Source of the DNA: Amphibalanus amphitrite
Lineage: Eukaryota; Arthropoda; Thecostraca; Balanomorpha; Balanidae
NCBI RefSeq assembly: GCF_019059575.1
Contig: NW_024881868.1
Span: 496,001 to 560,000, forward strand
Length of the DNA: 64,000 nucleotides
Direction: 5' to 3'
Shown here one piece after another: positions 10,780-41,965 of the stretch; position 1 is the stretch's first letter, and each line of letters opens with the position of its first letter. The position numbers and the translations under genes were made by a program. The notes below the pieces were generated by a model. The model was not told the origin of the DNA. It saw only the letters and a list, made by a program, of their open reading frames with translations, and made no database searches.

Positions 10780-12520
10780 AAAGAGCGTCAAAAATATGGA
10801 AAAAACACTCAGGTCATTTTTAAGGTCAGGTCAAAGGTCAGGTCACCAGAGGTCATCAAAGGTCAAATTTAGTCCATTTCAATAATTTTGGAAAATGCCA
10901 ACGGCTAACTCGGGAACCAATAGAGCTACAGCGCCGCGGAAAAGCGCATTCGATAGCCCCTTTTACAGACCTTTCTGACTAATGTTCTCAGATTTAAACC
11001 TCAAGTCAACGGTTTAGCCTCAAGAGGGCAAAAACTAAAAATAACCGTTTTTACGAAAAATGTTTCTCGGCAATAACTTTTGACTCAAGAGAGCCACGAC
11101 ATTAATTTTGGCAGCATCGTGTTTCTCTCGTCGAAAGGCGTCGAATGAACCAATTGTCGACCTTGAAAGGTCATTTTGAAAATTTGGCCTTTGGTCAAGG
11201 TCATGACCTGACCGGAAAGGGTCATGTTGCATATCAGTCGATCCGTATCGTCGATCTGAGCACATCTGACGTGTTTTCATCGCTCTAGCACGTCTCTATC
11301 AAAAGCTATAGCCAAAAAATTGCTGGTGACCGCTTGTGACCTGAGATGACCTCAGGGGCATACAGAGGGGTCACAGGTGCGTTTTTCTGATTCAGTGTGT
11401 TATGTTTACCGATGAACCGATAGGTAGGGGAGAGTGGGGCAAAGCGGCCACCCTAACGTTTCTAACGATGCCGACGCTTGATTTTTAAACTTGGAAAGAT
11501 TCTTTCTATACCAATGTGATCCCTATTAAATTGTCTTTTATTCCAACTGCGTTTCATTTCCAAAGGCGTTCACATATGGGAGATATTGACAAAACTTTAA
11601 ACCTATAGCATATTGGCCACTTTGCCCCATCCCTGAGGCAAAGCGGCCACTGGCGACTTCTCAAGTCCCGATATGAGAAACAGAATAGTTGCCTCATGCA
11701 CGACTAGGGTATTTGATGGTGACAAGTTTTAAGGGAAGATGGATGTTTACTTTGTTATCTTCCCACCTATTGCTAAACAAAGAAAGAATTTTCTTGGAAA
11801 AACATTTAATTGCATAATTTGGTAAGTCATGTAACCGAAAAGTGGCCAAGATGAATGCATGACGACACATTTGAATATAAATAATGTTTTTATCCAGATG
11901 GAAACAACTTATGGCCAATTGGGGGCTGGCCACTTTGCCCCGGCCGCTTTGCCCCGCGCATACCGTCCGAGACAAAAATATTCCAGCTCAGCTATTAGTG
12001 GGGTAAAAAGCATTAAAATTGGTAGAAGGCATGTACGATAACCACGCAATGCATGGACAAAAACGCTTATAAAAATTCCAAACGGTTATGGAATAAAATA
12101 ACAACTAAAAATTGTAAACATAATTGGTAACCTGGCAAGAAATGCTTTTCCGTGTTTCACAGAACAATGGCGATGGGCCTGAAACCCCGGTCTGGCTCAT
12201 TCGAACGACCGCAAAGAGAAGTATAATTGGAAATCATAAATTGGAACTGACGCCAGCTGTGGAGGGCTAAAACGATGGATGGCCGCTTTGCCCCGGGTGG
12301 CCGCTTTGCCCCACTCTCCCCTATTTGAGAGCGTTTTGAACGGCATTTGTCCAAAAGAGACGCATTTCAATTATCACCCATTGAATTATAATGGAGAGGT
12401 CGCAAAATTGACCTGACCTTAGGTCACATATCTAAAAAATCCGAGACATACATTTTATACATACTGTTACTCATATCAATCGCTGAAAGCTTTTTAAGTA
12501 ATAGTTCAGTCGGTGTAGCA
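10780..12520. repeat. Left arm of a large AGGTCA-rich inverted repeat
   Basis: The sequence at 10860-11430 and 12325-12500 is the reverse complement of about 16450-17270. Matching landmarks include the passage on the forced Gly/Ser-free text 'gccaacggctaactcggga' (10900 region) against its inverse near 17140-17160, and 'ggagaggtcgcaaaattgac' (12394) against its inverse near 16530. The arm is interrupted at 11427-12321 by a TA-flanked element that is absent from the other arm. It is rich in GGTCA/TGACC words. No coding capacity recognised. Confidence 0.75.
11427..12321. mobile_element. TA-flanked inverted-repeat element, word family GGCAAAGCGGCC
   Basis: Terminal inverted repeats of about 27 bp begin GGGGAGAGTGGGGCAAAGCG on the left and mirror this exactly on the right, with TA on both sides (11425-11426 and 12322-12323), as in the Tc1/mariner/pogo group. 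The word GCAAAGCGGCC or its inverse recurs inside: an inverted pair at 11615-11650, a tandem pair at 11928-11956 and a tandem pair at the right end (12283-12312). No transposase is visible, so it is a non-autonomous (MITE-like) element of 895 bp. The inverted partner arm near 16610-16640 keeps the unoccupied site. Confidence 0.85.
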
Positions 12521-14676
12521 TAGCGAGCCTTTGAACTTTTCCTAGGTAAGGTCACTTGACGTGACCTGGTGACCTGAACTTGAACGACCCGGGTCTGAAA
12601 TTTTGACATGTGCGGAAATGATGTATGAGCATATGTAGGAAAACAGCGGCACTGCGCGCTGCCGTTTTTTAGATATTTCAAAAACGCCCCCCCCCCCCCC
12701 ACCCCCTCCCCAGCACGGCGTGGGTTTAAGAAGCCTTTGACAGAACTGACCTAATCAGTGTGGTCCATCTCTTGGCAGAGAAGTTTTCAGGCCTCATCCT
12801 TCAAAAACGACACAAGCCATGTCTTGCGTGATGCTGGTTGGGTTCGGGGTACCTACTTCGTTTCCTGTCAAACTCAGCCAAAGAGTGCCGTTAGCTCGTA
12901 AAACGTCTCGTCGAGCAGGAGTGCAGGCCGACCCCGTGAACGGGGGCCGGGGCAGTTGCAGAGCATGGCTCGTGCACGCATTAGTCTCAATGCTGGATCC
13001 TCCCGCATTCCCGACCTGTCCGCAATGGTCACCGTTCCGTGACGGTGACGACCAGCGTGGCGAAAGACCCCGCGAGTTGTGATGTGACAGGCCACAGCCG
13101 GAGGCTCTCTCCAGCGTGCTAAACGTGGGCGTCGTGCTGTACTTCCGAAACGCTTAGCATGATAGCACTAGCAGTTCATCTAATTTAACTGCATTATCAT
13201 TAGCCTAATCAGTTTTAGTGTGTTAATCGTCATAGATCACTGAGCAACAAGACCAAATGACGAGTGTTAAACTAAAGGAAATATATCACTTTTAACCCGA
13301 GCATGACTGGGGTATATTCCATAACGCGAGTGACGCCCCCCCCCCTCTCCTACCTCCGAAACTACTGGACCGTTCGTCAAAATTTAACCCGCGCCCTGAT
13401 GAGGGGGCCATTTTGCCCCCCCCCCTGTGGTTTTTCTTAAATAGCGAGAAAACGGCGGAAATGAGAATAATGAGCAAAAAACATGACATCTTGAAACGCT
13501 CACCAAATCTACAGTTGACAAGCAATTTTAAAGTTCTTTATGTGGTTGTGTAGAGAAAAGACGGCGCTACAAAACTGCTATCTCGGGTTTTCGAAATTTT
13601 GGGATTTTCCTCCCAAAAAAATCAAAAAAATCTATTTTTTTAGAAAAACTTAAAATTCCCAAAAAAAATCGAATTTCGAAAAACCGGAATATATGTGATA
13701 GTCCCTGCGCTTTTCGATATAGGTACATACCAAATTTTAGATCGATACCTCTTTTTTGGCCACGGTATAGCGAAAAAAAAACTTAAAAATTGATGGCGTC
13801 AAATATTTAAATCAATTTTTAGCAATTCTAGACCACGTAGCGCAAAACGGAGACCACCATTGATCTCCCCATGACGATCTGCATCAAATCGATACCCATT
13901 TTATGCAAAAATATCAACTTTGAAATTTGACCTTATTTGACCTGACCTTGACCTGACCTTGACCTGACCTTGACCTGACCTTGACCTGACCTTGACCTGA
14001 CCTTGACCTGACCTTGACCTGACCTTGACCTGACCTTCACCAAAACATAATCTCAACTGACCCCAAGGGCTGCCTGTCCTACATAATCGCATTTGGCATA
14101 TAAAATGGACCATAAAACATGCATCACATGATATTTTTAATTTGTGACCCTCGGTGACCTGACCTCTGTGACCTGACCTGGCATCAATGACCTCAAATAG
14201 CAAAATATGTGTTTGAAGAACATTTCCCCATCGATGATTTTCAATTAAATGCATTTTACTCGATTTTACAACGCATTTCTTGAAATGCCTGTAAACGGTG
14301 AAAATTCGACTTTTGACCTGACCTGTGACGTCATCGGTTTGACCGAGGTCAATGAAATTGGGTCACAAGGTAGTTCCCCTTTGGGGCTATCCAACGCCGT
14401 TTGCCGCTTGTCGCTATGTTGCGTGGTTCTCGAGACCTTAGGGGGGGGGGCAAAATGCCCCCCCCCCATCAGACCGCGTTGCTCGGCAGGCCCCTCAGGG
14501 CGCGGGTTAAACGGTATCTGATAGCCCTGGAAAAATTGTCGAGCGAAACCTAATTTTATTGACCTCTGGGTCTCCGATGACGTCACAGGTCAGGCAAAAG
14601 TAAAAACTATCAGCATTATGCTTGTTCACAATTTAGGCTCTGGCCTCCGGCTTTTGTTTACGCACTCCTTGATATA
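12322..14676. repeat. AGGTCA-rich repeat DNA with homopolymer C runs
   Basis: After the rest of the left inverted arm, this stretch carries dispersed repeat sequence without a recognised gene. C runs lie near 12686-12700, 13336-13346, 13418-13426 and 14459-14467; those at 13400-13426 and 14441-14467 pair with nearby G runs. Short frames such as 13901-14254 come from the tandem repeat listed separately. Confidence 0.6.
13932..14036. repeat. 11-bp tandem repeat (TTGACCTGACC)n
   Basis: About nine to ten near-perfect copies of TTGACCTGACC lie head to tail. Each copy contains the half-site TGACCT (inverse AGGTCA) overlapping a second TGACC, so half-sites recur on the same helical face about once per turn. 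Shorter runs of the same unit occur near 30500-30530, 17700-17740 and 33525-33545. Confidence 0.9.
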
Positions 14677-15658
14677 CAGGGTGTCCGGAAAGTCCTGGCG
14701 CTTTCCAACATTTTTGAAAACAAATGCCTCTGGTTGATAGATACTCAACAAAAGATCAAAACAATTATCAGGGACACCAAGCCATATACTTCCGCTAAGT
14801 GCTCATTCAATATAACCATCGTCGGCACCGACGACAGCCTCGACGCAAGGGCGGAAGCACCTGCGTGTTTTGACGATGTATGACATTTCCAAGTCCTCCC
14901 ATGCTGCCATGTAGCGAGTATTCAGCGACTCCAGGTTGGGATGACAGGTGGCCCAGAGCTTATTCTAAAAAACGCGGGCACGCCTTAGTCAAGCGGGTTA
15001 AGGTTAGGCGAATGAGGCGGCCTAATCTCATTTCGCCAAAGTGATCTGGCCCGCCGAGCTCCTCCGTCAGTAGGTATGGCTTGGGCGATAGCGGCATTGT
15101 TGGAGGGCGCTGCGTGCTGTCGAAAAGTGAAATGCGAAGTAACCCTTAGGGCAAGTCACCTTGAACCTCGGGTTGATATGCCTGTTCAGGATTTCCTCGT
15201 GGACCAGCCTGCGTTTTCATTTATCTAACATTGACGAAGATATGGAACATTTTTGTCCATCACACCTCTGGATTTTCTTCGATTGCCGCGGAAATGCTGC
15301 TAAATTCTCGGCAGTTTTAACATAGCGCGGTCGTACCGGTCTGGGGGATATTTCTAAAGGAATTCTGGAGTCAGAATAAGCCTTCACCTGCTCAACCATG
15401 CGCCAAAAACCGCCGCATCGCGTTGTAACTCGCACCTCGTTCAAGCCCCACCCGGCCGCCGCGCGCAGGCATTCCGCGACAAGGCGCATCTTCGCCCATC
15501 CACCCATCACTAAAAACGATTTCAAGGTCATATTAACACGACCCCTGGCTAAGTGGCCAACAAGGGGTAATGTCTGTGGTGATTAGTTGAATGTCCAATA
15601 ATCACAGCACGCATTAGACGGCGTCCAATAGAAGCGCCAGGACTTTCCGGACACCCTG
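14677..15658 (-). mobile_element. Decayed Tc1/mariner-like transposon
   Basis: Perfect or near-perfect terminal inverted repeats begin CAGGGTGTCCGGAAAGTCCT at both ends and are flanked by TA (14675-14676, 15659-15660). The transposase lies on the minus strand and is broken. The N-terminal part is open at 15531-15217. Further on, PPHSPNLNPLD (about 15020-14988), the mariner signature next to the third catalytic acid, is followed by a frame-disrupted C-terminal segment that includes NLESLNTRYMAAWEDLEM and ends in a VGADDGYIE-like tail near 14815. At 982 bp it is shorter than a usual 1.3-kb mariner, so it has internal deletions as well as stops. Not expected to be active. Confidence 0.85.
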
Positions 15659-15660
15659 TA

Positions 15661-18115
15661 TGCCTTAGATACTCTGAGGGTACCGACCTTGTACTTTGAA
15701 TGTTTAAGGTCAAAGCCAGGTTATCCTAGGTCACGGAAACTTTATATCATGTATTGGTCACGTGACGCATGTTTTATGGTCCATTTTACTCAAAGATTTC
15801 GAAAACAATGTCGTCTGTGTCATTTGAGGTCAATTTCAGCTGAATTTGCCTGAGGTCAGGGCACTTTCAGGTAAAAAAGGTCAAATCTTGAACATGAAAT
15901 TTACATTTTAAAATTAAATAAAATTAAAATAAAATTTATATTGCTGTCAGCTGTGCGATGTCAAAAACGTACTGAAAATGGATTTGAAAAATATACCTTT
16001 ACCTATTTATGAAATTTTTCTAAAATGCGTAATGCGTATAATGAGGGGGCAGAAGCTGTCCCCCCTCCCGTTTTTCGCCAATAACTTCTAAACACGTTAC
16101 GCCAGCGACGTCAAACTTTCAGTACCTACCGTATCATTTATTGATGTAACACGTTCCCTGAAAATTTGAGCGAAATCCGTCACAAAATTTTTCAGAAAAT
16201 GACGTTTAAGTGACGTCATGTCCGCCATTTTCGCCTAAAAAAAACGGCAAAATTTCAAACACCGCTAACATCTTCATTTTTAAAGGGATCAAGACGTAAC
16301 AAAAAGTGATACGTTATTCTACTTTGTCTATCAAATTGCCATCCTGTTTTTTTTTTCGATTTAGGCCCAATAGGTACCTATTTTTCTATTTTTAAAAAAC
16401 TGACTTTTGGAGGAAAATCATAAAAAATCTAAAATTCGGAACGATCGCCTTCAAACTTCTAGCGATTGATAAGAATAACAGTATGTACAAAATATTTATC
16501 TCGGAATTTTGATATCGGTGACCTAAGGTCACGTCAATTTTGCGACCTCTCCATTACCTATAGGTAAGTCAATGGGAGAAAATTGAAATGCGCCTCTTGT
16601 GGACGAATGGTGTTCAAAACCCTCTCAAACATCGGTTCATGAGTAAACATGACACACTGAATCGGAAAAATGCACCTGTGACCCCTCTGTGTGCCCCTGA
16701 GGTCATCTCAGGTCACAAACGGTCACCAGCAGTTTTTTGGCTATAACTTTTGATAGAGACGTGCTAGAGCGATGAAAACACGTCAGATGTATTCAGCTCG
16801 ATGATGCGGATCGACCGATATGCAACATGACCCTTTCCGGTCAGGTCATGACCTTGACCTGAGGTCAAATTTTAAAAATGACCTTTCAAGGTCAGCGAAT
16901 AGTCCATTCGACGCGTCTCGACGAGAGGAACACGATGCTGTCAAAAGTAATGTCGTGGCTTGCTTGAATCAAAACCTATTGCCGAAAAGCTGTTTTTGGT
17001 GCATAGGGCTATTTTTACAGTTTTTTGCTCTCTGGAGGCTAAACCGTTGACCTGAGGTCAAATCTTAGGACAATACGCAGAAAGGCCTGTAAAAGAGCTA
17101 TCGAAAGCGCTTTTTCGAGGCGCTGTAGCTCTACTGGGTCCCGAGTTAGCCGTTGGCAGTTCCCAAAATTGTTGAAATGGCCTATATTTGACCTTCGATG
17201 ACCTCTGGCGACCTGACCTTTGACCTGACCCGAAAAATGACTGAGGTGTTTCCGTCATAATTTTTGACGCTCTTTCGAATACCGCTTATCGCGTGTCGCT
17301 ACGTGGCCCAGGAGCCACGTTAGACAGGGGGGTGTTCAGAAATCCCCCTCCCCCGGCCCGGCGCGAAAGTCGCGGAGCACCGGTCCTGCGCGGGTTAACA
17401 ACCAACTTCAAAATTTGACCTCAGTTTACCTGACCTTGAACTGGCCTCAACCTGAAATTCATCCAGATGTGGTCCATATCACTTATTGAGTGTGCCTATT
17501 GAATTCTATGAATAAAATGGCCCATAAAACACGTGCGCACATGGCCTTTTCTATAATTCGTTTTTGGTGACCTTACCTGACCTTGACCTTGACCTTTGCA
17601 TGATATCGTATGCAACGAATATTGTCTTGGTAGCCTAAGAACACGTTTTGGGCACTCAGTCCCAGTCCATTCTTTGGCAACCACGGTGCAAGGCCGATAC
17701 TGCAGAAACTTGCATTTTGTACACTTGACCTGACCTTGACCTGACCTCTGACCTACTTAAGCAAAAAAATCAGCTCTTAAGATCTGCCTTGTTGAGTGCT
17801 TCCGATTGCCGTTTTCCCATCTTTCTACGACCATCGATTCGGAAGTTAGACAGGGGGGCAGAATCTGCTCCCCCCCCCCCCCCCAGCAGGGCGCGCGGGC
17901 TAAAAGTAAATAGCCCAGCGAGGCGCGGGTTAACAGAAACAGGTGTAAAATTAAACGAGCTACAACAAAAGCGGCCCAACGTCATTTTTAAACTTTTGCA
18001 TTTGAACCATCTGAAGTAAAAATTTAATTCGGTATTCAGCATGCCTACCTAGGCTAGTAGGTACCTACGAACTGACAGAAATCCATTTTTCCCCAAACTT
18101 ACCCCAAGACGTAGG
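15661..18115. repeat. AGGTCA-rich repeats, right arm of the large inverted repeat
   Basis: The part from about 16450 to 17270 is the reverse complement of 10860-12500. The part from 16040 to 16340 recurs in direct orientation near 29715-29995 (shared text includes cgttccctgaaaatttgagc), and 17400-17740 recurs near 30330-30700. G-run/C-run hairpin cassettes lie at 16043-16072, 17331-17356 and 17850-17884. No gene recognised. Confidence 0.65.
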
Positions 18116-18117
18116 TA

Positions 18118-18426
18118 GGGGAGACCCGGGAGGTATGGGCCGGTTTTCGGAAAAGGCAATTTTCTTCCAGTGGGCAGTGACTAGACCCGGTTTTTCACTC
18201 TGTGTACGTGAAATTGCCTTTCGCCTGCTAGATGTGCCTGATCTTAGGCATCTGGGATCAACTATTTCATCTCGAGATAACTTTCAATAAATAATGCGTT
18301 TTTTCGATTCATCAAAATACACCGGGAGGTATGGGCCCGGGTGATATGGGCCGGTGCCATGTTTCATATTCTTTTCTCGAAAATGAGAACAATACTCGTA
18401 GCCGGTATCTACCTTGATTTCTCTTA
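18118..18426. mobile_element. Left-end fragment of a TA-flanked element, word family GGTATGGGCC
   Basis: It begins TA then GGGGAGACCCGGGAGGTATG, the same outer end as the other elements of this type but with a different word. The word recurs inside as GGGAGGTATGGGCC at 18325-18338 and GGTGATATGGGCCGG at 18340-18354. No matching right end exists in the window. The element is cut at about 18426 by the foldback cluster that follows. Confidence 0.65.
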
Positions 18427-20280
18427 GGCCGTGTTACACTGCCGAAATTTGGCCACGACCCTGTCGCCGAATCACGTCGTGTAGGAAATCGGTCAACAGT
18501 TCACCGACAGAGGCGAACAGTTCGCCGACAGAGCCCGATTTGCAGACAACGGGTGGGGGGCCCCCCTAATCGTGCGCGGGTCGAAGCTGATCCATGATTC
18601 GGCGAACATCGCGAATGAATGGCGAATCTGTTGCGAATAGTCGGCGATACCTTGGCAACAAGTCGGCGCACGTCAGGGCATATTTTAACAAATTTTTACT
18701 GCGTCCCAAAGTTGAGCAGAGGGCACGTGCTACGACTAAGGGCACAGGGCAAGGAACAGAGTAGGGCACTGAGGAGGGCAGAAAGTAGGGCACGGCAGGT
18801 TGCAAGACATGGCACAGAACATTTTGAGGGAAGGCCGGGTGCAGGTCAGGGCAGACGGCAGGGCACAGGTCAGGGAACCGGACAGGGCAGGGACGCAGTG
18901 GTTCAAATCAGCAGGGGCTACGTCTCAAGGCGAGGGGGCTGCGTCCCAAAATGGGACGCAGTAAGTGCCTCAAAATATGCCCTGGCGCACGTAGCGACAT
19001 GTCGGCGGTGACTCGGCGAGTGTTTGGCGATCATGTTCGTTTAAGCCCTTGTTACACTGCCGAATTTGTGTACACGAATGTGCACGAATATGCAAGTCAT
19101 CCTTTGTCGCGGACCGATTCGGGATCTTTCTTCCACGGTCTTGGCATTTCGCAGACCAGTCGGTGTTCACCGCGCGACTTTTACGGTTCGTCACGACCGC
19201 CACGAATATTTCATGAAAAATGAAAATTTCGTGGCCGTTCGCCGAATTTATAATAAACGAACATGATCGCCAACCAGTCGCCGAGTCGCCGCCGACATGT
19301 CGCTGCGTGCGTCGACTTGTTGCCAAAGTATCGCCGACTTTTCGCAACAGATTCGCCATTCATTCGCGATGTTCGCCGAATCATGGATCAGCTTCAACCC
19401 GCGCACGATTAAGGCCGTGTTACACTGCCGAATTTTGGCCACGACCCTGTCGCCGAATCACGTCGTGTAGGAAATCGGCGAACAGTTCACCGACAGAGGC
19501 GAACAGTTCGCCGACAGAGCCCGATTTGCAGACAACGGGTGGGGCCCCCCCTAATCGTGCGCGGGTCGAAGCTGATCCATGATTCGGCGAACATCGCGAA
19601 TGAATGGCGAATATGTTGCGAATAGTCGCCGATACCTTGGCAACAAGTCGGCGCACGTAGCGACATGTCGGCAGTGACTCGGCGAGTGTTTGGCGATCAT
19701 GTTCGTTTATTATTAGTTCGGCGAACGGCCACGAAATTTTCATTTTTCATGAAATATTCGTGGCGGTCGTGACGAACCGTAAAAGTCGCGCGGTGGGCAC
19801 CGACTGGTCTGCGAAATGCCAAGACCGTGGAAGAAAGATCCCGAATCGGTCCACGACATAGGATGACTTGCATATTCGTGCACATTCGTGTACCAAAATT
19901 CGGCAGTGTAACAAGGGCTTTAGGGGGCCCCCCACCCGTTTTCTGCAAATCGGGCTCTGTCGGCGAACTGTTCGCCTCTGTCTTGTTCGCCGATTTCCTA
20001 CACGACGTGATTCGGCGACAGGGTCGTGGCCAAAATTCGGCAGTGTAACACGGCCTTTATTATAAGTTCGGCGAACGGCCACGAAATTTTCATTTTTCAT
20101 GAAATATTCGTGGCGGTCGTGACGAACCGTAAAAGTCGCGCGGTGGGCACCGACTGGTCTGCGAAATGCCAAGACCGTGGAAGAAAGATCCCGAATCGGT
20201 TCGCAACATAGGATGATTTGCATATTCGTGCACATTCGTGTACCAAAATTTGGCAGTGTAACAAGGGCTTTAAGCCCTTG
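18427..20280. repeat. Cluster of foldback modules ending in GTGTTACACTGCCGAA
   Basis: Three modules recur in both orientations: one starting GGCCGTGTTACACTGCCGAA and running through a TCGCCGAATCACGTCG stretch; one starting CTAATCGTGCGCGGGTCGAA; and one starting GCCCTTGTTACACTGCCGAA and running through a CACGAATATTTCATG stretch. Copies begin near 18427, 19049 and 19412, and inverted copies end near 19920, 20057 and 20272. TAA/TTA next to some ends would suit PIF/Harbinger-type target sites, but this is inference. The words TTCGCCGA and TCGGCGAA are very dense. Many short frames appear and none resembles a known protein. Confidence 0.7.
18674..18984. mobile_element. hAT-like MITE with 8-bp target duplication
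   Basis: This 311-bp element starts CAGGGCATATTTT and ends AAAATATGCCCTG, flanked on both sides by the identical 8-bp sequence GCGCACGT (18666-18673 and 18985-18992). The second terminal word is TACTGCGTCCCA (inverse TGGGACGCAGTA). The interior is full of subterminal GGGCA/AGGGCAC words, as in hAT elements. It interrupts a foldback module whose uninterrupted sister copy at about 19640-19680 shows the empty site. No transposase. Confidence 0.92.
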
Positions 20281-22609: not shown

Positions 22610-22897
22610 GGGGCCAGGAGGAGAGTCAACAGAGGCGGTCACCATCGGACGGCGTCGGAAGAGGCTGCTCGCAGCGGTCGGCAGCAGGATCAGCACTGAT
22701 CACCGCAGATTTGATAACACTGACGGAAACAGAGTAGTTTCAGGGGTCTGATGCGTATAACCCAACGCTTGTATTATGACTTGGTAGCTCGGAAATGCCG
22801 TGGTGGCTTGTGAAATACGCTATCGACTAATGAAGCAAGCTATCCTGATATCCGAGCCTGACATTTATCAAATGATGATCATCTTTCTTCATTTATT

Positions 22898-22903
22898 AAT
22901 AAA
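22898..22903 (+). terminator. Polyadenylation signal AATAAA of the P450 gene
   Basis: A canonical AATAAA lies 289 bases after the P450 stop codon, and a GT-rich stretch (cttgtgtgccgtc) follows, as expected for a cleavage and polyadenylation site. Confidence 0.65.
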
Positions 22904-24958: not shown

Positions 24959-27900
24959 ATGGTGCGCGCCGTCTGTGCCGCCCTTCTGCTGGTCGCGCTC
25001 TCAGTGCAGTGCTGCTGCCAGTCGGTGCGGGCGGAGAGTGAGCGGCTGACACGCGGTGCCGGCTTCTTACAGGCACCGTCAATCCAGCACTCTCGAGAGT
25101 CCTCAGCGCCGTGGAGTAGTCACCTGACAGTGCGTTATCACACTCAGTCTTGTAGAACGGACACTCATGCCATCAGTGAACTAAAAGTATCCCATGAGGG
25201 TACGGGCAGTGATCAGTTCCGTGAACTAGTCGGATCTAACAATTATGAAATCAATAGAGCCTTTGAACTTAGTGTGCAAAGAAGCCGACGTCCTCAGTAC
25301 CGCCCTCGTCACGGCATCAGATCACACAGACTAAAGCGTGCAGTCCGCTGGGAACGTAGCAGAGCCGACGGCCCGCTCCAGGACAAGAGTGGCGCAGCAC
25401 AGCGGTCGGGCAGAGGTCAGTCTGGGCCAGGAGACGCCCAGAGACCTCACCCGACACCGTCAGAAGGCGCTGCCGTGTCTCCGCGCGCCGGCTGCGACTG
25501 TTCGGTGCTCAGTCTGCTGGGCCTAGCGACCAGCGGCGCGGCGCTGGGTGCGCTGGGCGCCGCGCTGGTGCAGCAGCTGGCCAGCGGCGGCACCGGTCGC
25601 AGCCAGCAGGCGACGCCGCTGGCCGCGCTGGTGCCGCACCGGCTGCGGGCGGCGCTGCGGGTGGCACTGGTCGACCCGGACCGCCTGCTGAGTGTCACCT
25701 GCGGCGCGGCCGGCCGGCTGGCTGAGGCGGCCCGCAGCCCGGTCTCGCTGCCGCGGCCGGCGGCCGGCGGACGCAGCATGCTGGAGGAGTGCGACTGCTA
25801 CGGCGGCATGCTCGGCTCGCTGGCCGGGTTTGCGGCGCTGGCAGGCGCCATAGCCTTCGCCGCCACAGCCGCTGTACTTGCGACGACGACGACAACAACG
25901 ACAGCAGCGCCGGCAGGGGCGGGAGGACGGGCGGCGAGTCTCTTCGGCAAGGAGACAGGTAAACGGCAGTGTGAAATGGGACGGGAGGGCGGGCAGGCAG
26001 CGGGTCGGGGTCTCTGCGGCAGGGAGACGAGTAAATGAATGCACCACAGAGATAGGTACCGATCACCACGTCGAATGTTACGCCACTGCATCGGCGTATA
26101 GGTATGCATATTGCATAACATTCACTTGTCGGATCAAATCCAAAATGAGGTGTGCAGGTCACTGTTATAAGCACTCGACCCAACAATTAGTTATCTGGTA
26201 AAATTTCCTTCCGACGTTGTGAGTGGAGCGATTTTGATGCCCTTGAATTAGCACGTGACACGTGCCGTGACGGTCACCCAGGTGCGCAATATCCTCAGGA
26301 ATGGCTGAGTTATACGCATTCCTAGTCAAAATTTTACAATTTTCTATTTTTCAAATCCATTTTTCAGTGCGTTTTTGACATCGTAGGTACAGAATATAAA
26401 TAACACCATTGTGTTCCTGAGCTCAAACAGCATCTGATAGTCACCTGTTTTGTTGAAAACTTTCCTTTTCAAAATTTGACCTTTTTTTACTTGAATTAGT
26501 GACCTGACCTCAGCTAACTGCGACTGAAAATGACCTCAAATGACTCAGACGATACCTACTGTTTCCGAAACCTATGAGTCAGGGCCTCGTCTAACATGTT
26601 AACTGGGGGGGCAATTGCCTCCCCAGTCGAGCGGATTGCCCCCCCCCCCAGTGGCCAGCATTTGCCCCCCCCCCCAGTCAAAACGTGAACTTCTCACAAA
26701 ATTACCTTCTCTGGCTGACGGGCGGCGAGTCTCTTCGGCAAGGAGACAGGTAAACGGCAGTGTGAAATGGGACGGGAGGGCGGGCAGGCAGCGGGTCGGG
26801 GTCTCTGCGGCAGGGAGACGAGTAAATGAATGCACCACAGAGATAGGTACCGATCACCACGTCGAATGTTACGCCACTGCATCGGCGTATAGGTATGCAT
26901 ATTGCATAACATTCACTTGTCGGATCAAATCCAAAATGAGGTGTGCAGGTCACTGTTATAAGCACTCGACCCAACAATTAGTTATCTGGTAAAATTTCCT
27001 TCCGACGTTGTGAGTGGAGCGTTTTTGTTAATGCGTTTTTGTTAGGAGTCTTATACGGATTTAACGAGAAACGTTAAATTATTTGTTCAAAAACTGTTCA
27101 TACTCCATGACTACGGGAAAAGCCAGAGTTTTGTGATTTATAGAGCTGAGTACCCACTGTGATTCTGTGATTTTGCTACTGTGATTCAAGTAGCAAATTG
27201 TCAATGGGCAGCTGCCAGTGACCCAACTCGTGTTTGTGTCCCCCCCCCCCCCCCCCTCCCACTCAATCAAACGCCCACGGCCCAACACGGATAAATATGT
27301 TTAGCACTGTCTGGTGGGACAATGTGAGGGGGTAACACATTAATCTTAACTCTCGCCCGTATTGGTGTTTTTCCAGCCGCGAACGTATAGCGGGGGGGGG
27401 GGCGTTCTACCTTGCCCCTTGCTGTTTCGCCCCTGATCGAGCTAGAGCTTCGCGGAGAAAACCACCGTGTTGCCCGTCACGAGAGGAAGCCGATGATGCC
27501 TCATTTTAAGGTCCTTAGTCTTCGGTTGACCTTCCAGGTCAGGTCTATGACCCTAAAGTCGGGAAAATCGCGGGACCTGTTACAACGTGGTAAAGGGTGG
27601 CTGTTATGTTTTTTTCGGGTGCTGATCACGAATATCATGTTAGTTAATTATCACAGATGTCTTCATGCATTTAGGCCAGGTCGGGTCAGGTCAGGTCAGG
27701 TCAACCAGTAAGGGTTTTGCCGGGTATTCGTAGTAGGTGGCAACCGCCTCTGGCTCTGACAGCTTCGTAACATGTTACGAAGGCACCAAAACTACTTCGT
27801 TTATGTTCAAATGGTTGCTAAATTCGAATTCAGCTCCAAAAACTGGCCTAGAATCATGTAAAACTCGAAAAAGTGAACCGAAGTCATCAAAAGCCAATGA

Positions 27901-30900
27901 CCTGACCTGACCTCGTGGTGACCTTGACGCCTACCCTAATGCATGGGAGCAATATCATATTCCATGTTTGAACTCTTGAAACCACGAAAAGACTGCAAAC
28001 GCGCGGCTAATGCGAGCCGACATACGCCGAATCGCGATTCCGGCCAAATATGGTCTCGAAAAGAAGTCACAGGTCAAAGGTCATTACGGTCAGGGTCATG
28101 ACATTTTCAAAGTAGGTGTAAAATTGACTAACGCGTGGGTACTGAAAGTTTCGTCGCGGTCAGCCGCTTTTACGTGAGTTATTCGTGAAAAACCGGGGGG
28201 TCCGTTCGACCCCCCCCCCCCCCCCTATACGAGCATGGCTCTTTTTTGTTTTTTTTTGTGTTTTTTTTTTGTTAAAAAAATTGGTCTCAGGGCTGTGACG
28301 AAAAACAAGTGGCCTAAATCCGGTGAGAAAACAGGATTAGGGGGTACCCTAGGTTTGGGTCCTTCAGTCTCTGCCCCCCCCCCCCCCAGTGAAAATTCCT
28401 TAGACGAGGCCCTGCTATGAGTTAAATGGACCATTAAACATATAGGGGAAAGTGGGTGTATTGCGCCCTCCTAACCAATTGCGCCCACCAACATTCCCAC
28501 GAATTCAATGGCATGTTTATAATTTTGTGTTCGAAAACAATATTTTCACCACCGGATAGTTCATTTTATGGCCTAAGCTCTCCGGCGAAGCCAATCAGCA
28601 GGGCTCATTACGCCATCAAAGATATTACGGCGTTTTCTTAACTTTTTTGCAGTATTTTGAACCGTTGGCTATAAAAAATGTGTGATACGTGTGTGATTTT
28701 CAGAGTGATATTTAGAAAGAAAACCCCTTTTTTCATTATATTTCACTTGAACAGTAAACTTCCTTCAGCATATTTATGATAACTTCTACGCTTTTATTAA
28801 AAAGTATCTCAATTTTAATTGCGCCCATGGCAATTGCGCCATGGGGGCGCAAATAGAATAATGGTGTAGCTATTCTATCACGACAGTATGATTGCATCAT
28901 TAACTAATTGCAATAAAAAAAGGAGTTTAATGCCAGGCAGGGGAGCAGCCCGCTGTCGCCAGTCCGCAAATTATTTCTCTCGTCAAACTAAAAATGCAGC
29001 TGCCATTTAGGCTGCGAGCTTGTGGTGTAATTGACAAAATACGGCATTTTCAACATGGACTCGGGCGTGAGAGGTGACAGCTATGATAAAAAAGTAAAAA
29101 CTGATGTCAACAAGTGGTCGAAACGATAAAAACTATTAATTTTGACAGAAACTATTGAAAATTTAACCGTATAGGCGCATACGTTCACATATATCTAGCC
29201 GCTTACACTAAACGTTTTCGTTGCACTTGTACAAGCATACGGACACATGTAAAGTGATTTACTTGGGCAAAAAACATCGCGATTTATATCTACATTTATT
29301 ATTTATCCAGCCTGATTAACATTATAAATGTTTAAGTAAGCCGCAATAACATCAAACTGCCGGGGTGTACGCATTCCGTGTCATTCGCTTAGCCATGTTT
29401 AAGTATAGGGCGCAATTGGATTCTAATTGCGCCATCCCCCTGGCGCAATTTACAGCAGTTGTTTGTAAATGCGCCCTTTTGCATGTTTCTGAAAAAGCAG
29501 CTGTCGGAAGCAAACGAAACATTCTTAATTGATCGGGAGGAAATCGTAGCTAATGAGTTCCTCTTTGAAGTGGTTACCAGTGCATGCTTATATCTCCATC
29601 GGTTTTCTTACAATTAGCGTTTTTCCTTAAGGTGGCGCAATTCACCCTCCTTCCCCTATACGTCACGTGACCGATACATGATATCCCGCGCGGGGCTGGA
29701 GGAGGGGGTAAATTTTACCCCCCCCCCCTCGCGAATTTTTGCGATATCTCAAAAACGGCGGCGCGCAGCGCCGCCAAACTTTCAGTACCTTTTCTTACAT
29801 CAATTTGACACGTTCCCTGAAAATTTGAGCGAATTCCGTCGGAAAATTTTTGAGAAATTGACGTTTTAGTGACGTCATGTTCGCCATTTTCGCCTCAAAA
29901 ACGGCAAAAGTTCAAACGCCGCTAACATCTTCATTTTTAAAGGAATCAAGACGTAACAAAAAGGTTAAACGTAATTTTACTTTGTCTATCAAATGGCTAT
30001 CTCGGTTTTTTGAAAATTTTGGATTTTGGCCTAATTTTTTTTCAAAAAACGGATTTTTTTGGGAAAATCATCATAAAATCCAAAATTTTGAGTCTATCGA
30101 AAAAACCGGAATATATGTCAGAGAAGTGGTCTATGTGCACCTACATACCAAATTTTAGAAGAATCGGTTCAAAAATGTGGGAGTTATTCAAAATTTTATG
30201 ACGTCACGACACACAAATTTTTTGAAAAATGACTTTTTTGGAAGTTCTAGACCTTGTACGGAAACAAAAATAGCACCATTCGATTCGCCGTGAAAACTGC
30301 ATCAGATAGACACCTTTTTAGGCCTTAACAACCAACTTCAAAATTTGACCTCATTTGACCTGACCTTGACCTGACCTCGACCTGAAATTCATCCAGAGGT
30401 GGTCCATATCACTTATTGAGTGTGCCTATTGAATTCTATGAGTAAAATGACCCATAAAACATGTGTCGCACATGCCCTTTTCTATATTTTGTTTTTGGTG
30501 ACCTGACCTGACCTGACCTGACCTTGACCTTGACCTCTGAATGATATTGTATGCAACGAATATTGTCTTGGTAGCCTAAGAACACGTTTTGGGCGATCAG
30601 TCTCAGTCCATGACTCCATTCTTCGGCAACTACGGTGCAAGGCCGATACTGTAGAAACTTGCAATTTGTACCCTTGACCTGACCTTGACCTTGACCTCAA
30701 ACTTTAAATTAAGTACATGTATTTAGTAGTTCGTGATGAGAGCTTTCGATTGGCGTTTGAATTTTCCAAATCGGACCATTAGTTCGGGAGATAACAGGGG
30801 GGGGGGGTAAAATTTACCCCCCCCCCCAGCCCCGCGCGTTCGGCTGGAGACCCCAGCCCCGCGCGGGATATAAAATTTCCATGATCTAGGATGACCTGGC

Positions 30901-33900
30901 CTTGACCTGAAAAAAATCGAAATAAATGTTCGGTATCCTAAGGGTACCTATCTAAAGCATATATCAAGGGGTGCATACTCATAGATGTGCGTAGACAAAA
31001 AATGAGCCTGATCGGACTTGTTAGCCGGCGGCCAGAGCCTAAATTGTGAATAAGCCAAAATTCTGATAATTTTTGCTTTGACCTGACCTGTGACGTCATC
31101 GGTGACTTCGAGGTCAATGAAAATAGGTTTCGCTCGGAAGTCGAGCGTATCGAGCGTATCAAGCGATCGAGCGTATAAGAGGGAGGGGGTCCGTTGGACC
31201 CCTTGCCGTTTCGCCCCTGATCGAGCTAGAGCTTCGAGGAAAAACGAGCGTGTTGCCCGTGACGAGAGGAAGCCGATGATAGGTAGGTACCCAATTTTAA
31301 GGTCCTAGATCATCGGTTGACCTTCCAGGTCAGGTCAATGACCCAAAAGTCGGGAAAATCGGGACCTGTTAGAATATGGTAGTGTGGCTGCATATGGTTT
31401 TTTCGAGGTACTGATCACGAATATCATGTTAGTTTTGATCACAGATGATGTCTTTACTCATTTAGGCCAGGTCGGATCACGTCAGGTCAGGTCAACCAGT
31501 CAACCTGCCGGGTACTCGTAGGATGAATCAACCGCGTCTTACGGCTCAACCAAAACTACTTCGTAAATGTTCAAATGGCTGCTGAATTCGAATTCAGCTC
31601 CAAAAACTAGTCTACAAGCATGCAAAACTCGAATAAGTGAACGAGGTCATCAAAGGCCATTGACCTGACTTGACCTTCAGGTGACCTTTACACTCACCCT
31701 AATGTACCTATGGGAGGAATATCATATCACGTGTTTCAACGCTTCACACCACGAAAGACTGCAAACGCGCGGCTAACGCGAGCCGACATACGCCGAATCA
31801 CGATTCCGGCCAAACATGGTCTGAAAAAGTGGGTCACAGGTCCTGGAAAAGTGGGTCATAGGTCAAAGGTCACTTGGGTCAGGGTCAGAAATTTTCAGAG
31901 TAGGCATAAAATTGATTAACGCGAGGGTACTAAAGGTTTCGTCACGATCCGCCGCTTTTTACGCAAGTTATTTGCAAAAAAACCAAGGGGGTCAGCTCGA
32001 TCCCCCCCCCCCCTATACAGGGAAACGTTAACCCTCGCCGGCACAGGGGGTTGATGCAACCCCCCAAGGTTTTTTCGCGAATAACTCGCGTAAAAAGCGG
32101 CCGATCGCGACGAAACTTTCAGTACCCTCGCCTTGATCAATTTTACACCTACCCTGAAAATTTCATGACCCTGACCCAAATGACCTTTGACCTGTGACCT
32201 CTTTTCCAAGACCATGTTTGGCCGGAATCGCGATTCGGCGTATGTCGGCTCGCATTAGCCGCGCGTTTGCAAGCTTTTCATGGTTTCAAACGTTCAAACA
32301 TGTGATTTGATGTTGCTCCCATTCATTAGGGTGGGTGTCAAGGTCGCCTGAAGGTCAGGTCAGGTCATTGACCTTTGGTGACCTCGGTTCACTTTTTTAG
32401 TTTTAGGTAGGGGAGAGAGGTCATATTGCGCCATGTTCTTAAATGCGCCACACCTTCCTTCTGCCCAAAATTCGGTTCGAACGAATACTCGAATGTGTGC
32501 ATTTACTTCACCACCAATAACTCGCTCTTATTTCGGTCCACGGGGGCAGGTGCGGTGTCTCAGCTTTCTCGCAGACCATTTTTTGTGATTTCCTCTATTT
32601 TCGTACGCGAAACAGTCTATTTCGACCTTTGCTAGTGTCATGGTTTATCTTAGAGATAGTGATTCAACTAATAATCATTGTTAATTGCTCGTTTAATGGT
32701 AGTTTTGAAAGTTTATCACCACCGTGGCTTCGCTGTCGTCGCCATATTTGAAGCTCATGAAAAATATGTTCCATTCGTAATTGCGCCCACCCTATGTGCG
32801 CCCTATTTCTTCAACTCAGAGAAACAGCATCTGGTGGTTGGGACACATTTCATTGAACACTTTGATTATTAGAGCGCTCACCTTACCATTACCTTAGCCT
32901 TCACAGCATAAATGGTTAATGGGCTGACACGTTCAAATAGGCTACTTAGTTAGGTGGCAAACCGTTGTTTTTAATAGGGCGCTTTTACATGAGAGGCATG
33001 GGCGCTTTTTGACGGGGGAGTCCGTAAATGCGCCCTTTGCAGATGTGCCGGAAAGCTTTTCTCTTGTTAATTTTTCTAGGTGTGATACAAATTGGGAGTT
33101 GTTATTTGATGCCAAAAACACTGAGGTACAATTTGAGATATCATCAAACATGACAGCTGGTCAACTTTAGCCGCAATAGGCCGATAGGTATCCTTAAGGT
33201 GGCGCAATATGACCTCCCTCCCCTACGTGTTTCTAGGCTAGTTTTTTTAGCTGAATTCGAATTTAGCGTCCATTTGAACATTTACGAAGTTGTTTTGGTG
33301 CCTTCGTAACATGTTACGAAGCTGTCAGAGGCGGATGACAGGTACTACGAATACCCGTCACGACCCCTACCGGTTGACATAGGCGGAGGGGGCACCGGGG
33401 CACCGTGCCCCCTTTGATTTTGGCATTTTACTTTTAGCCCTATGAGCGTTGCATGGAAAGAATGAGACCAAAAGTCGGCAGTGCCCCCTTAATTGAAGGT
33501 GTTCTGCCGCTACTGCCGGTTGACCTGACCTGACCTGACCCGACCTGGTTTAAACGCTTATCGACATCATCTGTGATCAAAACTAATGCGATATTCGTGA
33601 TCAGCACCCCGGAAAACCCCTTAGCAGCCACACTTTACGACTTTCTAACAGATCCCGATATTCCCGATTTTTTGGTCATTGACCTGACCTGGAAGGTCAG
33701 CCGGTGACCTAGGACCTTACAATTTGGTATCATTGGCTTCCTCTCGTGACGGGCAACACGCTCGATTTTTCCGCGAAGCTCTAGCTCCATCAGGGGCCAA
33801 ACGCGAGGGGGGTCGTACTAACCCCCCCCCCCCCTCTTGTGCCGTCGAAGCGAAGGACTCAAAATGGCCTGTGCCGGCGAGGGTTAAGTTGACCTCACCC

Positions 33901-36900
33901 TAACAAAAAGTATACCACTCGACGCCCCTGATCTAGACTAGCACGAAGGTGCCAAAATAGCGGTTCTGTGGCCATTTTGCGAAGTTATTTACCAAAAACC
34001 TAGCCCTTGCCTTGGGCCAGTTGACCTGACCTCAGAGGTCACCGTTTGACCTGAGACCTTATGATCGGGTACCAATCGCTGCGTCTCGTAACGGGCGCAC
34101 ACGTTCGTTCTTCCGCGAGGCTCTAGCTCCATTAGGGGCGAAACAGCGAGGGGGTCGTACCCCCGCCCCCTTCGGACCTTCCCCTCGGTATGAAGAAAAC
34201 CAATAGGTCCGGCGAGGGTTAAATTAAAGGCCTTTAAGCGCGGAATTCTTGTTGTGGAATATTTGCTTCCTGAAACCCCTGAAGGCCGAATGTCGCCGCT
34301 ATCTCCGTGGAAAGGTCCTATCGCCCGAGGGCAGGAAATAAGTCAGGATACAGCCAGGTGACTGACTGATCGGTACGGCAGCCGCTGGGCCAGCTAGGTA
34401 GTTAGGTACGGGCTGCATTCAGGGGAGCGTGTTATGCAATGCAGACGCGGTAGTCTACATCCAGACTTCCCATGATATGTGGTAAGTACAGTCACTGAAC
34501 TCTATAATGGGTACAGTCTACATTCAGGCCACCGTGTAGTGCGGTACAGCCTAAATTCAGGCGACCGTGTAGTGCAGTACAGTCTACATTCAGGCGACCA
34601 TGTTTTGCGTCACAGTCTACATTCAGGCGACCGTGTAGTGCGGTGCAGTCTACATTCAGGCGATCGTGTTGTGCGGTACCGTCTGCACTCAGACGACCGT
34701 GTAGTGCGGTGCAGTCTATATTCAGGCGACCTGTTGTGCGGTACAGTCTACATTCAGGCGATCTTGTTGTGCGGTACCGTCTGCATTCAGGCGACCGTGT
34801 AGTGCGGTGCAGTCTACATTCAGGCGACCGTGTAGTGCAGTACAGTCTACATTCAGGCGACCGTATTGTGCGGTACAGTCTACATTCAGGCGACCTGTTG
34901 TGCGGTACAGTCTACATTCAGGCGATCTTGTGCGGTACCGTCTGCATTCAGGCGATCTTGTTGTGCGGTACCGTCTGCATTCAGGCGACCGTGTAGTGCA
35001 GCACGCCAGCACAGTCTACATTCAGGCGATCTTGTTGTGCGGTACCGTCTGCATTCAGACGACCGTGTAGTGCGGTGCAGTCTATATTCAGGCGACCTGT
35101 TGTGCGGTACAGTCTACATTCAAGCGATCTTGTTGTGCGGTACCGTCTGCATTCAGGCGACCGTGTAGTGCGGTGCAGTCTACATTCAGGCGATCGTGTT
35201 GTGCGGTACCGTCTGCATTCAGACGACCGTGTAGTGCGATGCAGTCTATATTCAGGCGACCTGTTGTGCGGTACAGTCTACATTCAGGCGATCTTGTTGT
35301 GCGGTACCGTCTGCATTCAGGCGACCGTGTAGTGCGGTGCAGTCTACATTCAGGCGACCGTGTAGTGCAGTACAGTCTACATTCAGGCGACCGTATTGTG
35401 CGGTACAGTCTACATTCAGGCGATCTTATTGTGCGGTACCGTCTGCATTCAGACGACCGTGTAGTGCGGTGCAGTCTATATTCAGGCGACCGTGTAGTGC
35501 AGTACAGTCTACATTCAGGCGACCGTATTGTGCGGTACAGTCTACATTCAGGCGATCTTGTTGTGCGGTACCGTCTGCATTCAGACGACCGTGTAGTGCG
35601 GTGCAGTCTATATTCAGGCGAACATGTTATGCGGCACAGTCTGCATTCAGGCGACCGTATTGTGCGGTAACGGGTAATCTGCATTTAGGCGACCTTGATG
35701 TGATGTGCGGCACAGTCTGCATTCAGTCATTTAGTATGTTCTACGACTCCACATTGATCAATCAGTCGTGAGGTCTAGTCTATAGGTAGGTATTAGGTAT
35801 TCAGACGTTCCACTATTTGTGTTAAAAGGTCTTCATTCCGTGGAACACTTCGCGTCGTTGACAATCGACGAGCTCAGTCTGTCATTGACGAACTGCGAAT
35901 GGTAGCTTGAAAGTCGCAGGAATTGCAGAAGGTATCTTCCATTTCCGATGCATCAGTTTAGTTGGAGTAGGTGAAAGTATCTAAAGTCTAAACTAGTAAA
36001 AATAAGCAAATGGATCCTGGACGGCAATTACCAACAAATCAAATATCAGAATTAAAATATCACCAAATATAATTCAAATGCGGTTCTTATGCGGTTCTGG
36101 AGTTAACTGGACCATCCTCATCCACCCTTAGGAGCGGTGAGCTAAACTATGTTTAGCTGACTGCTGACACTTTGTGTTGAACAATGCACTGTCGTTGCCG
36201 TGCCTAACCGAGTGCTGCTGTTGCTGGCTGGCCGCAGGCTGGGATGTGCCGTCCGATTGGTTGGCCGCCGTGGCCCGGACCAGCGGCGGGGGCGGTGACC
36301 CACGGCACGGCCGTGGTCGGAGCTGTCCCGCGCAGCTGCTCTGCCGCGGACTGCAGAGTCTGGACGAGGCTCTCCCCAATGGAGGTCTACAGGCTCGCCT
36401 AGCCAGGTGAGGCTCGGGCAGTAGAGGTTCTCATGGACGGGGGACGCGCACGGTTCCGGGAGCTATATGTCCCCGCGCCACCCTCCGCTGCGTGTGGGTC
36501 ACGCGTGTGAGTGCGCTGGGTTAGCATCAGAGCGGGACATATGACGCACTTTCAGGGTAGTTTGCCGTGCTGCGGATATGCGGTTGCAGCCGCACGCCAA
36601 TGCGCGCCGAGCTCATTCGTCACGCGCGAGGATTTCCACTAATACCTATTCCCTACGCTTGGAACCATCCACAATAACACGACGGGAGCTTAGTCACTCA
36701 TCCGGCTTGTCTGAACGATTAGGTGAGCTTCTGCTAATCAGTCATCACTTTATTATTTTTTTTTTGTATTCCGAGGAAGACGGCAATTTTTCATCGATTT
36801 CGTACGCTGTGGGTGGAGCGAACCTGTGTGTCCCCCCCCCCCCCGGTGGGGCTGACTATGTGGCGTCGTGTGTTTTAGTCTGCCGGCGTCCTGGCTGCTG

Positions 36901-40740: not shown

Positions 40741-40986
40741 ACGGAGAGACAGGCGGTAGTGCGCAGCTGATTCTGTTACGCCTTGGCGTACTCCGCTTTC
40801 GCCCATAGAATGGTTCGAGATGATATGCCCGATGAGGAAAGGTATACGATTGTTAAGTGGTTCGAAATAGCATATTGGCCTGTAACGAGATCTCCTTTGT
40901 CAATACATACCCGATCATCCTGTTGTTCAAATTTTTGTACAATGCATTCACGTTATACAATACTACCCAAACAAAAGCAGTGTATA
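40741..40986. other. 3' flank of the protease gene
   Basis: No motif is recognised and no clear AATAAA is present. The stretch ends at the TA-flanked element that follows. Confidence 0.4.
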
Positions 40987-41965
40987 GGGTAAGGTGCCTA
41001 ATTAGCGACCCTTTCCGATTTGCGACCCACCTCCCTACAGAAAAACTGGCAGGAGCAAACGGGGTAAAAACATCGTCAAAAGGTCAGCCATACTTTGGTT
41101 ATCAAATTACATTATTTTCCGGTCGTCGATGTTTCTGGTGGGACGTTTCAGGTGATTTTAAGTAAAAATGACGAGTTTCTTATCCAAAACGTGTGTGTTT
41201 GGGCCCTCTCTGATGAAAAGCGATGCACGTTAGGATGGTGCACCTTTTTTATTCTGAATCGACATTCCTTTTTTAATTGATAACCGTTTTCCATAGTGAA
41301 TCGCTCAACTGTGCACAGCATGGCGGTTAAAAATATGTCGCAACTCATATTTCCTTTTTGCGCCTGGCATGGTCGCAAATAGCTCAAGAAGGGAAAGAAA
41401 GGGAAAAGGGAGAAATGAAAATGAGGTGTTGCTGAAGCTTGCAATGTGTGGCAGGGGATGCCAAATGTCGTCACCGACTACAGGGGTGCCGAGTTCAGCG
41501 CGGACCTCGAATATCATACAAGATAGCCTGCAAAATTTGGGTTTCCGCCTTCTTTTCGCCTTCGGTGGATCACGTGATCAGTTTTTACCTACGTAAATGT
41601 GTTGGATAAACGTTCCTGTTCGAGTTATTGAGTGCTTTGCGTATAGGTTACCTTTCTGAGATCATACCTATTTCATCTTTTCAGGCGTCGCATTTTTTGC
41701 CATTTTTAATATGGGGAATCCCATAGACTTATTAGCGACCCTCCCCGGTCGCTAATCGGGAAGAGTTCCCTATTAGCGTTTTTTGCAATGGTTTGCCAAA
41801 ATGCTCACTACAAATAAGTTAGTAAATATTGGGGCAGAAAATGACTATATTTTAATAGAAAAATGAACGATCTCTCCGAAAATCAAGCCAGTAACTCAGT
41901 GGCACCCACAGAGCGTGAACAATGACGGTTCAAATTAAGGGGGTCGCTAATTAGGCACCTTACCC
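40987..41965. mobile_element. TA-flanked inverted-repeat element, word family TTAGCGACC
   Basis: Terminal inverted repeats of about 27 bp start GGGTAAGGTGCCTAATTAGC and mirror exactly at the right end, flanked by TA (40985-40986, 41966-41967). The word GCGACCC or its inverse recurs at 41024-41030 near the left end, and as the pair TTAGCGACCC / GGTCGCTAAT at 41729-41758. No transposase is visible in 979 bp. Confidence 0.85.

Follow-up and report, generated by a model that had tools for sequence, protein, structure and literature searches.

How a transposon can alter its DNA specificity and survive, when the protein and all of its sites must move jointly, is an open question, and it is raised by a 64,000-nucleotide stretch of the Amphibalanus amphitrite genome (RefSeq assembly GCF_019059575.1, contig NW_024881868.1, positions 496,001 to 560,000, forward strand; hereafter the window). 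The initial annotation of this stretch described five TA-flanked features with the outermost bases GGGGA or GGGTA, in which each family carries a word of its own just inside the tip and repeats it further in; the word was read as a transposase-binding site whose specificity has repeatedly switched within one transposon lineage not recognised as any named family. We find that the word copies stand on a nearly fixed, asymmetric layout in families whose words differ, and this conserved layout is a new fact, more striking than the changing words. Most likely the transposase binds this word, with a specificity that would have diverged on a conserved scaffold, because the layout is conserved while the words differ and the DNA between the sites lacks clear homology. 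A named group exists as well: the elements are very probably gene-less members of one lineage of the pogo superfamily, with predicted transposases that carry a psq helix-turn-helix (HTH), a Tc5-type HTH and a DDE_1 domain.

The coordinates of the TA flanks and of the GGGGA or GGGTA tips check out at all five features (starts at 11427, 18118, 28445, 32410 and 40987; inverted right ends at 12321, 29656, 33223 and 41965), and the terminal inversions of E1-E4 are 24-30 bp long and 80-100% complementary. The A end is the end with the double (tandem) word and the B end that with the single word; the strand of an element is the direction from its A end to its B end, and sites are expressed as distances from the first word of each end, with + and - for their orientation.

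11427-12321, minus strand: E1, gene-less, 895 bp, word CAAAGCGGCC, A end on the right
11615-11650, no strand: inner word pair of the E1 B end, 173- and 199+
11924-11957, no strand: inner word pair of the E1 A end, 357+ and 371+
12277-12314, minus strand: terminal tandem word pair of the E1 A end, 18 bp apart
18118-18426, minus strand: F5, a B-end fragment of the L051 family, word GGTATGGGCC; tip and word are those of the L051 right end
18321-18355, no strand: inner word pair of F5, 196+ and 211+
28445-29656, plus strand: E2, 1212 bp, word ATTGCGCC, A end on the left
28459-28489, plus strand: terminal tandem word pair of E2, 18 bp apart
28812-28859, no strand: inner cluster of the E2 A end, 358+, 373+ and 383-
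29405-29480, no strand: inner cluster of the E2 B end, 163-, 192+, 205- and 225+
32410-33223, plus strand: E3, 814 bp, word (A/T)TGCGCC, A end on the left; empty site in the partner arm
32776-32806, plus strand: inner pair of the E3 A end, 355+ and 370+
32977-33036, no strand: inner triplet of the E3 B end, 171-, 200+ and 223+
40987-41965, plus strand: E4, 979 bp, word ATTAGCGACC, A end on the left
41368-41384, minus strand: inner site of the E4 A end, 367-/370-, its orientation differing from most A ends
41728-41757, no strand: inner inverted pair of the E4 B end, 195+ and 208-/211-

Further material came from a 264-kb sample, which contained at least three more GGG-tipped elements (X1, 892 bp; X2, 1902 bp; X3, 3901 bp), and from a genome search with DDE_1 (PF03184), which gave 100 matches from 111 candidates; eight representative loci were fetched first and five later, and they bear L numbers below. 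The genome-wide searches covered 807.55 Mb.

Recurrence of the family word inside the elements stood for four of the five features. Counted as 10- or 11-mers with at most one mismatch, or as exact TTGCGCC for the word of E2 and E3, the words had four internal copies in E1 (mean of 300 dinucleotide shuffles per element, 0.03), six in E2 (0.22), two in E4 (0.05) and two in F5 (0.01), counts matched by none of the 300 shuffles; in E3 the exact word TTGCGCC had one copy only, which was reached in 32 of 300 shuffles and is not significant. A less hand-picked test, which took the best 10-mer of the end zone (at most one mismatch; ten elements, 200 shuffles each), was reached by 0/200 shuffles in seven elements, 1/200 in L051, 5/200 in X3 and 73/200 in E3. 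E3 fits through a shorter core, GCGCC, at the conserved places, a core that occurs about three times per kb in the window. In the first count, words of other families were missing from the elements except for one TTGCGCC in E4 (reached in 33 of 300 shuffles), E2 and E3 sharing their word, and the end-zone 10-mers matched foreign elements 0-3 times, mostly between similar words (that of E3 three times in E2; that of X3 twice in E3; those of E1 and L053 twice each in X3). The background of 59,791 bases held 0, 1, 0 and 3 copies of the family words.

The copies, some 6-10 per element, follow a nearly fixed spacing. At the A end, a tandem copy stands at 16-18, plus copies stand at 345-360 and 370-391, and minus copies lie mostly at 383-402 and, in some elements, at 407-417. 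At the B end, there is a minus copy at 163-174, with plus copies at 192-200 and 211-225, and E2 and E4 have an additional minus copy at 205-211. One A and one B end each were found in E1, E2, E3, E4, X1, X2, X3, L049 and L051, the A end of X3 having the tandem only. The A end lies 5' of the transposase in L049, L051, L052, L053, L054, L059, L061 and L062, and the B end lies 3' of it in L049, L051 and L056. The layout was first seen in E1-E4, X1, X2, L049, L051 and L053, and the rule was written before the single ends of L050, L052, L054 and L056 were examined, three of which fitted. A second advance prediction, made for three fresh loci, was exact in L059. The further copies of L059 (4/4) and L061 (5/5) all lay inside the predicted intervals, against shuffle means of 0.02 and 0.01 (maximum 1), in a test that included a fifth interval at 405-417.

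Across 12 A ends (intervals totalling 43 bp) and 12 B ends (28 bp), 28 and 23 sites, respectively, fell inside the intervals, compared with shuffled means of 0.30 and 0.27 (maximum 3) and with means of 1.7 and 1.1 for wrong-family words (maximum 9 and 6). No A-end word stood in a B interval and no B-end word in an A interval. A site was in place at 12/12 A ends and 10/12 B ends; the two B ends lacking one are the doubtful right end of L053 and that of E3, which fits by its 5-base core only. Both arrays are retained in the gene-less elements; the shortest of these, E3 at 814 bp, leaves little space beyond A (~430 bp) and B (~250 bp), a sign that the arrays may be required. The tip by itself is a poor marker: of the 47 TAGGG(G/T)A tips in the 264-kb scan, 30 lie apart from the elements already identified, and among these 30 a tandem-type copy was present in five (three of which lie in one local tandem repeat), a B-interval signal in two and an A-interval signal in one; the corresponding numbers for 1369 random TA sites were 63, 37 and 40.

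In the genome, the E1 family is recent and uniform, with 40 full-length places at 99-100% identity (40 scored among 1271 candidates), and TA on both sides in 20/20 fetched copies from 16 distinct places marks a TA target-site duplication. The E4 end occurs 517 times in forward and 519 times in reverse orientation, the reversed-pattern control giving none, and within the 100 listed places most of its pairs are ~980 bp apart.

A TAGGG(G/T)A tip with its own repeated word stands beside the DDE_1 gene at seven of the eight loci fetched first, L050 being atypical, and among the later five L059, L061 and L062 fit, L061 and L062 being two loci of one further family. Both ends were seen in L049 and L051, one end each in L050, L052, L054 and L056, and a left end with a doubtful right end, tip GGGGGAGA, in L053. 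F5 had been taken for a fragment holding one element end, and the match of its tip and word to the right end of L051, which has a 602-codon open frame, confirms this; L051 is the autonomous partner of F5, which preserves an L051-type right end. L059 carries the end type of X3. No unrelated transposase turned up among the families with a found gene, since all have homologous DDE_1, and to this extent the single lineage first proposed is upheld; the place of E1, E2/E3 and E4 in it rests on ends and layout, because no partner gene was found for them.

DDE_1 was over the cut-off in all eight open reading frames (ORFs) fetched first, HTH_psq was found in 6/8, HTH_Tnp_Tc5 in 6/8 and both in 5/8 (E<=0.01, several matches being below the curated cut-off). 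Both HTH types precede DDE_1; L049 shows neither, and the L055 ORF is cut at its start. The spacing of the last two catalytic residues, read by eye, is 35 in L049, L051 and L052 and 36 in L050 and L056. Identity in the DDE region is 41-55% among seven families and 29-35% between L049 and those; in the same seven families (without L049), it is 14-37% for the psq HTH and 25-48% for the Tc5 HTH. A predicted model of P0002, a relative of L051 (44-sequence alignment; mean predicted local distance difference test score 84.2; predicted template modelling score 0.62), contains a pair of HTH units and a fold of the RNase H type; among PDB entries, Mos1 complexes match it best (E 6e-7, whole-chain template modelling score 0.33). 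A PDB sequence search with L051 alone gave no match, and one with profile A1 gave 2cob, the LCoR protein, as the sole match. Relatives of L051 comprise 369 proteins at E<=0.001 (7995 candidates scored), and those named among the best 120 are mostly from invertebrates, including leafhopper, chiton, scorpion, weevil and Hydra; in viral contigs, 15 stretches matched a pattern and none was confirmed as a relative. Weak sub-threshold zinc-finger-type matches were found in L052 and L053 among the eight proteins, and Cys/His-rich C-termini, mostly after short-unit repeats, were seen by eye in L050, L052, L053, L054 and L055.

With the pogo superfamily (IS630-Tc1-mariner; DD35D Fot-like and Passer), these elements share TA duplication, tandem N-terminal HTH, DDE_1 and short terminal inverted repeats (TIRs) (PMC7386202). 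They differ in their inner word arrays and A/B asymmetry, which the cited sections of that source do not mention. Fot and Fot-like elements are described as having HTH_psq and HTH_Tnp_Tc5, TA or TAA duplication and DD35D (PMC7386202), a description that fits here in part, by the two HTH types and TA, with a spacing of 35 in some loci and 36 in L050 and L056. The assignment is left at the superfamily level, with Fot-like and Passer as the nearest descriptions, compared by features alone. In Drosophila pogo, 12-bp transposase sites in the ends are bound by the N-terminal HTH. A short end site, in our elements a putative target of such a domain, is common to them, Drosophila pogo and Tigger, the latter represented by the CENP-B box, a short end site bound by an N-terminal HTH (PMC7325037).

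An outer and an inner transposase site at each end, with left/right asymmetry, are also found in the inverted repeat/direct repeat (IR/DR) organization of Sleeping Beauty and other Tc1 elements; Sleeping Beauty has four sites, an extra half-site (half-direct repeat) on one side and ordered assembly (PMC7827188). Sleeping Beauty differs in its Tc1 transposase and its one inner site, whereas here the transposase is of the pogo type and the inner sites form clusters of 1-4 at ~160-225 bp at the B end and ~345-417 bp at the A end. The Tc1-type transposase, the TIR of ~220 bp and the one inner plus one outer site that define the Sleeping Beauty-type IR/DR group are not found here, and the resemblance would be one of function, not of membership. 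Our searches of open-licence PMC papers turned up no description of sister families whose sites differ in concert while the layout is fixed.

Which part of the protein might read the word? The word AA(G/A)ACGCCC, with differences of 0-2 letters, and the helix TL(R/K)RHRDGKV are common to L053, L059 and L061; these three agree in 10-12 of 14 recognition-helix residues, compared with 2-9 in the other 33 pairs of the nine families. Over all 36 pairs, helix identity and word difference correlate at -0.59. Tc5 identity within the trio overlaps that of other pairs. The sequences thus suggest the psq helix as the reader of the word, a good guess that falls short of a result, and the claim became weaker once 36 family pairs, and not the earlier 12, were counted. 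The original assertion that the word is the transposase-binding site has indirect support, above all from the fixed layout; the psq helix adds less, agreeing with the word in one clade and not in L049.

A number of results weigh against a word read by the transposase on a conserved layout. Among the advance predictions, L050 did not fit, its word being displaced from the usual position (+5 and +27), and L058 was imperfect, with tip and tandem present and inner copies at 341-, 379- and 406+ and also at 231+; the prediction for L057 failed, this locus having a different protein type and no tip in the stretch taken. Neither the right end of L050 nor the doubtful one of L053 has an array, no end was found in the stretch taken for L055, and E4 (367/370) and L054 (360, 380) have minus copies where others have plus. 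Matches outside the intervals numbered 11 on A ends and nine on B ends. The seven A and seven B ends outside the training list, with 14 and 14 sites compared with 0.15 and 0.13 shuffled and wrong-word means of 0.48 and 0.76 (maximum 3 and 6), come from a test that was not blind, because the intervals were chosen with the ends in view and F5 and E3 share training words. No autonomous partner of E1, E2/E3 or E4 turned up among the DDE_1 loci; the middle 2 kb of the one long E4 pair tested, C45:325441-329110, holds no gene, and longer E4 pairs on C4 and C3 had no match in the DDE_1 list or in a protein search (105 of 172 candidates scored). Passer, a pogo family, is reported to be mobile with short TIR oligonucleotides (PMC9976928), so that the superfamily as a whole does not depend on inner sites. 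As to the helix, its match with the word is a single event, because the three sharers form one clade (L053+L059 grouping support 0.97); L049 is alike to the clade in 8-9 of 13 helix residues and differs in 6-7 of nine word letters, the RDGK part of its helix being different; and L050 and L056 have like words (that of L050 being doubtful) with just 6/14 helix residues in common. Word and protein distances of eight families correlate (Mantel r 0.37-0.49, p 0.001-0.031), by 0.49 for Tc5, 0.45 for DDE and 0.37 for psq, so that psq does no better than the other parts.

The same correlation bears on the most serious rival, gradual drift of the words along lineages with neither adaptive switching nor insulation. 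Drift explains part of the word change, because word distance tracks protein distance and the words of the L053/L059/L061 clade are nearly identical, and on the same grounds the repeated switching first proposed was not borne out. Two observations resist a purely gradual account: at 53-57% identity (over a shorter DDE stretch), L053 and L059 (55%) differ in two of 11 letters, yet five other pairs differ in 5-8, and the word copies within an element mostly agree, so drift would have to be concerted. We give this explanation a substantial chance, a little below even; repeated specificity switching is plausible. An unlikely alternative is that a host factor or another element protein, such as a promoter or silencer factor, binds the word in place of the transposase. 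The position of the inner A-end cluster, 5' of the transposase gene, is one that a promoter could occupy, and L049 breaks the match of helix and word, as this explanation would allow; against it, the offset of the word is identical in both tips and at both ends, gene-less elements included, a host factor shared by the families would leave their separate words unexplained, and in the L053/L059/L061 clade the helix corresponds to the word.

The internal copies could also be remnants of terminal duplications, their shared spacing reflecting descent and not function, a simple explanation that requires no selection. The DNA between the sites tells against it. Between families, it averages the shuffled level (62.0% vs 61.2% shuffled in 91 A pairs, 60.1% vs 60.1% in 45 B pairs), the extremes being single pairs of up to 71% vs 62% shuffled (X1/L054), which would favour remnants, and a single 26-bp match in the L059/L061 pair. 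The sites stay within a few bp of their places, bear the word that the family now has and mostly keep their orientation; distances held while the inter-site sequence turned over point to function, and we consider descent by itself very improbable. A last candidate is membership of a different group that inserts at TA or AT, for example ISL2EU (PHIS), whose TIRs usually begin with GG (PMC4482050), and intact HTH_Tnp_4 genes are common in this genome. ISL2EU duplicates AT and not TA (PMC4482050), however, and it is the DDE_1 loci that show TAGGG(G/T)A ends; this candidate was rejected, 6/6 HTH_Tnp_4 loci having no TAGGG(G/T)A pair in 3.6-kb stretches that may fall short of whole elements, and its chance is negligible.

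We thus return to a transposase that reads a family-specific word on a shared scaffold. The ends, the words, the layout and the linked genes are direct observations, and binding, complex assembly, insulation and the order of changes are what we infer from them, as follows. The conserved catalytic core would read or require the outermost GGG(G/T)A, and the N-terminal DNA-binding region, with the psq HTH as its likeliest reader, would recognise the word at about +14 to +24. Transposase on inner and outer sites may build an asymmetric two-ended complex ahead of cutting, in a manner resembling that of Sleeping Beauty. With a change of specificity, all copies of the word would change along, families would become insulated, and layout and chemistry would stay. 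That one genome holds about ten mutually insulated transposase/end systems, differing in helix and word on a near-invariant asymmetric array with nucleosome spacing, is a tentative proposal that we find rather doubtful as a whole. The inner sites lie about one (B) and two (A) nucleosome lengths from the tips, and we speculate that wrapped nucleosomes may join tips and inner sites. If true, the lineage is a natural experiment in which a protein and ~6-10 DNA sites shift specificity together, and many families in one genome make the recognition code, the need for inner sites and cross-mobilisation directly testable. It could yield orthogonal cut-and-paste transposases, and also a word-based matching of gene-less elements to their transposase.

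The insertion sites carry a further signature. E1 and E3 lie in the arms of larger inverted-repeat (foldback-like) elements, at 11105-16947 and 27674-33550 of the window, and the opposite arm gives the empty site, a single TA for E3 and TG for E1. The filled E1 and E3 sites have 4 bp beyond the TA duplication, in the form TAGGTA-element-TA. TAGGTA or TACCTA stands at 11421-11426 (E1), 32404-32409 (E3) and 18112-18117 (F5); it is not beside E2, E4, X1, X2 or X3, and TACCTA adjoins E1 in 4/16 distinct places (L012, L017, L018 and L019), or 5/17 with the window copy. The adjoining TAGGTA may reflect re-insertion beside an old footprint or a target preference. Tc1-type excision footprints equal the 3' overhangs (PMC7827188), and by analogy TA-GG-TA could be the excision remnant of a GG-tipped Tc1-type element.

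Other repeats of the window and genome were recorded in passing. HTH_Tnp_4 genes (PF13613; G000, e.g. C1:3504115 and C60:879339) occur in many copies of equal score with intact frames, 19 rows being of 415 aa and 13 of 370 aa, which suggests recent activity. AGGTCA/TGACCT, which we take to resemble nuclear-receptor half-sites, is present 255 times, compared with ~31 expected at uniform base frequencies, and is clustered in the large inverted-repeat elements (10811-17749, 27527-34047 and 50607-55959). At 50787-56075, inverted arms flank an array of ~145-bp units with TTTGACCTTAAAGGTCAA palindromes. A TA-flanked 982-bp element at 14677-15658 has perfect 18-bp ends, CAGGGTGTCCGGAAAGTC, and is not of the GGG type, and a 1.75-kb near-palindromic repeat and a block of CACTGCCGAATTTTGGCC inverted repeats lie at 6934-8688 and 18437-20258. 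The genome has animal-type genes, and the window also carries, on the minus strand at 45377-49963, a 1529-codon frame with protease, reverse transcriptase, RNase H and integrase, a Gypsy-type long terminal repeat element.

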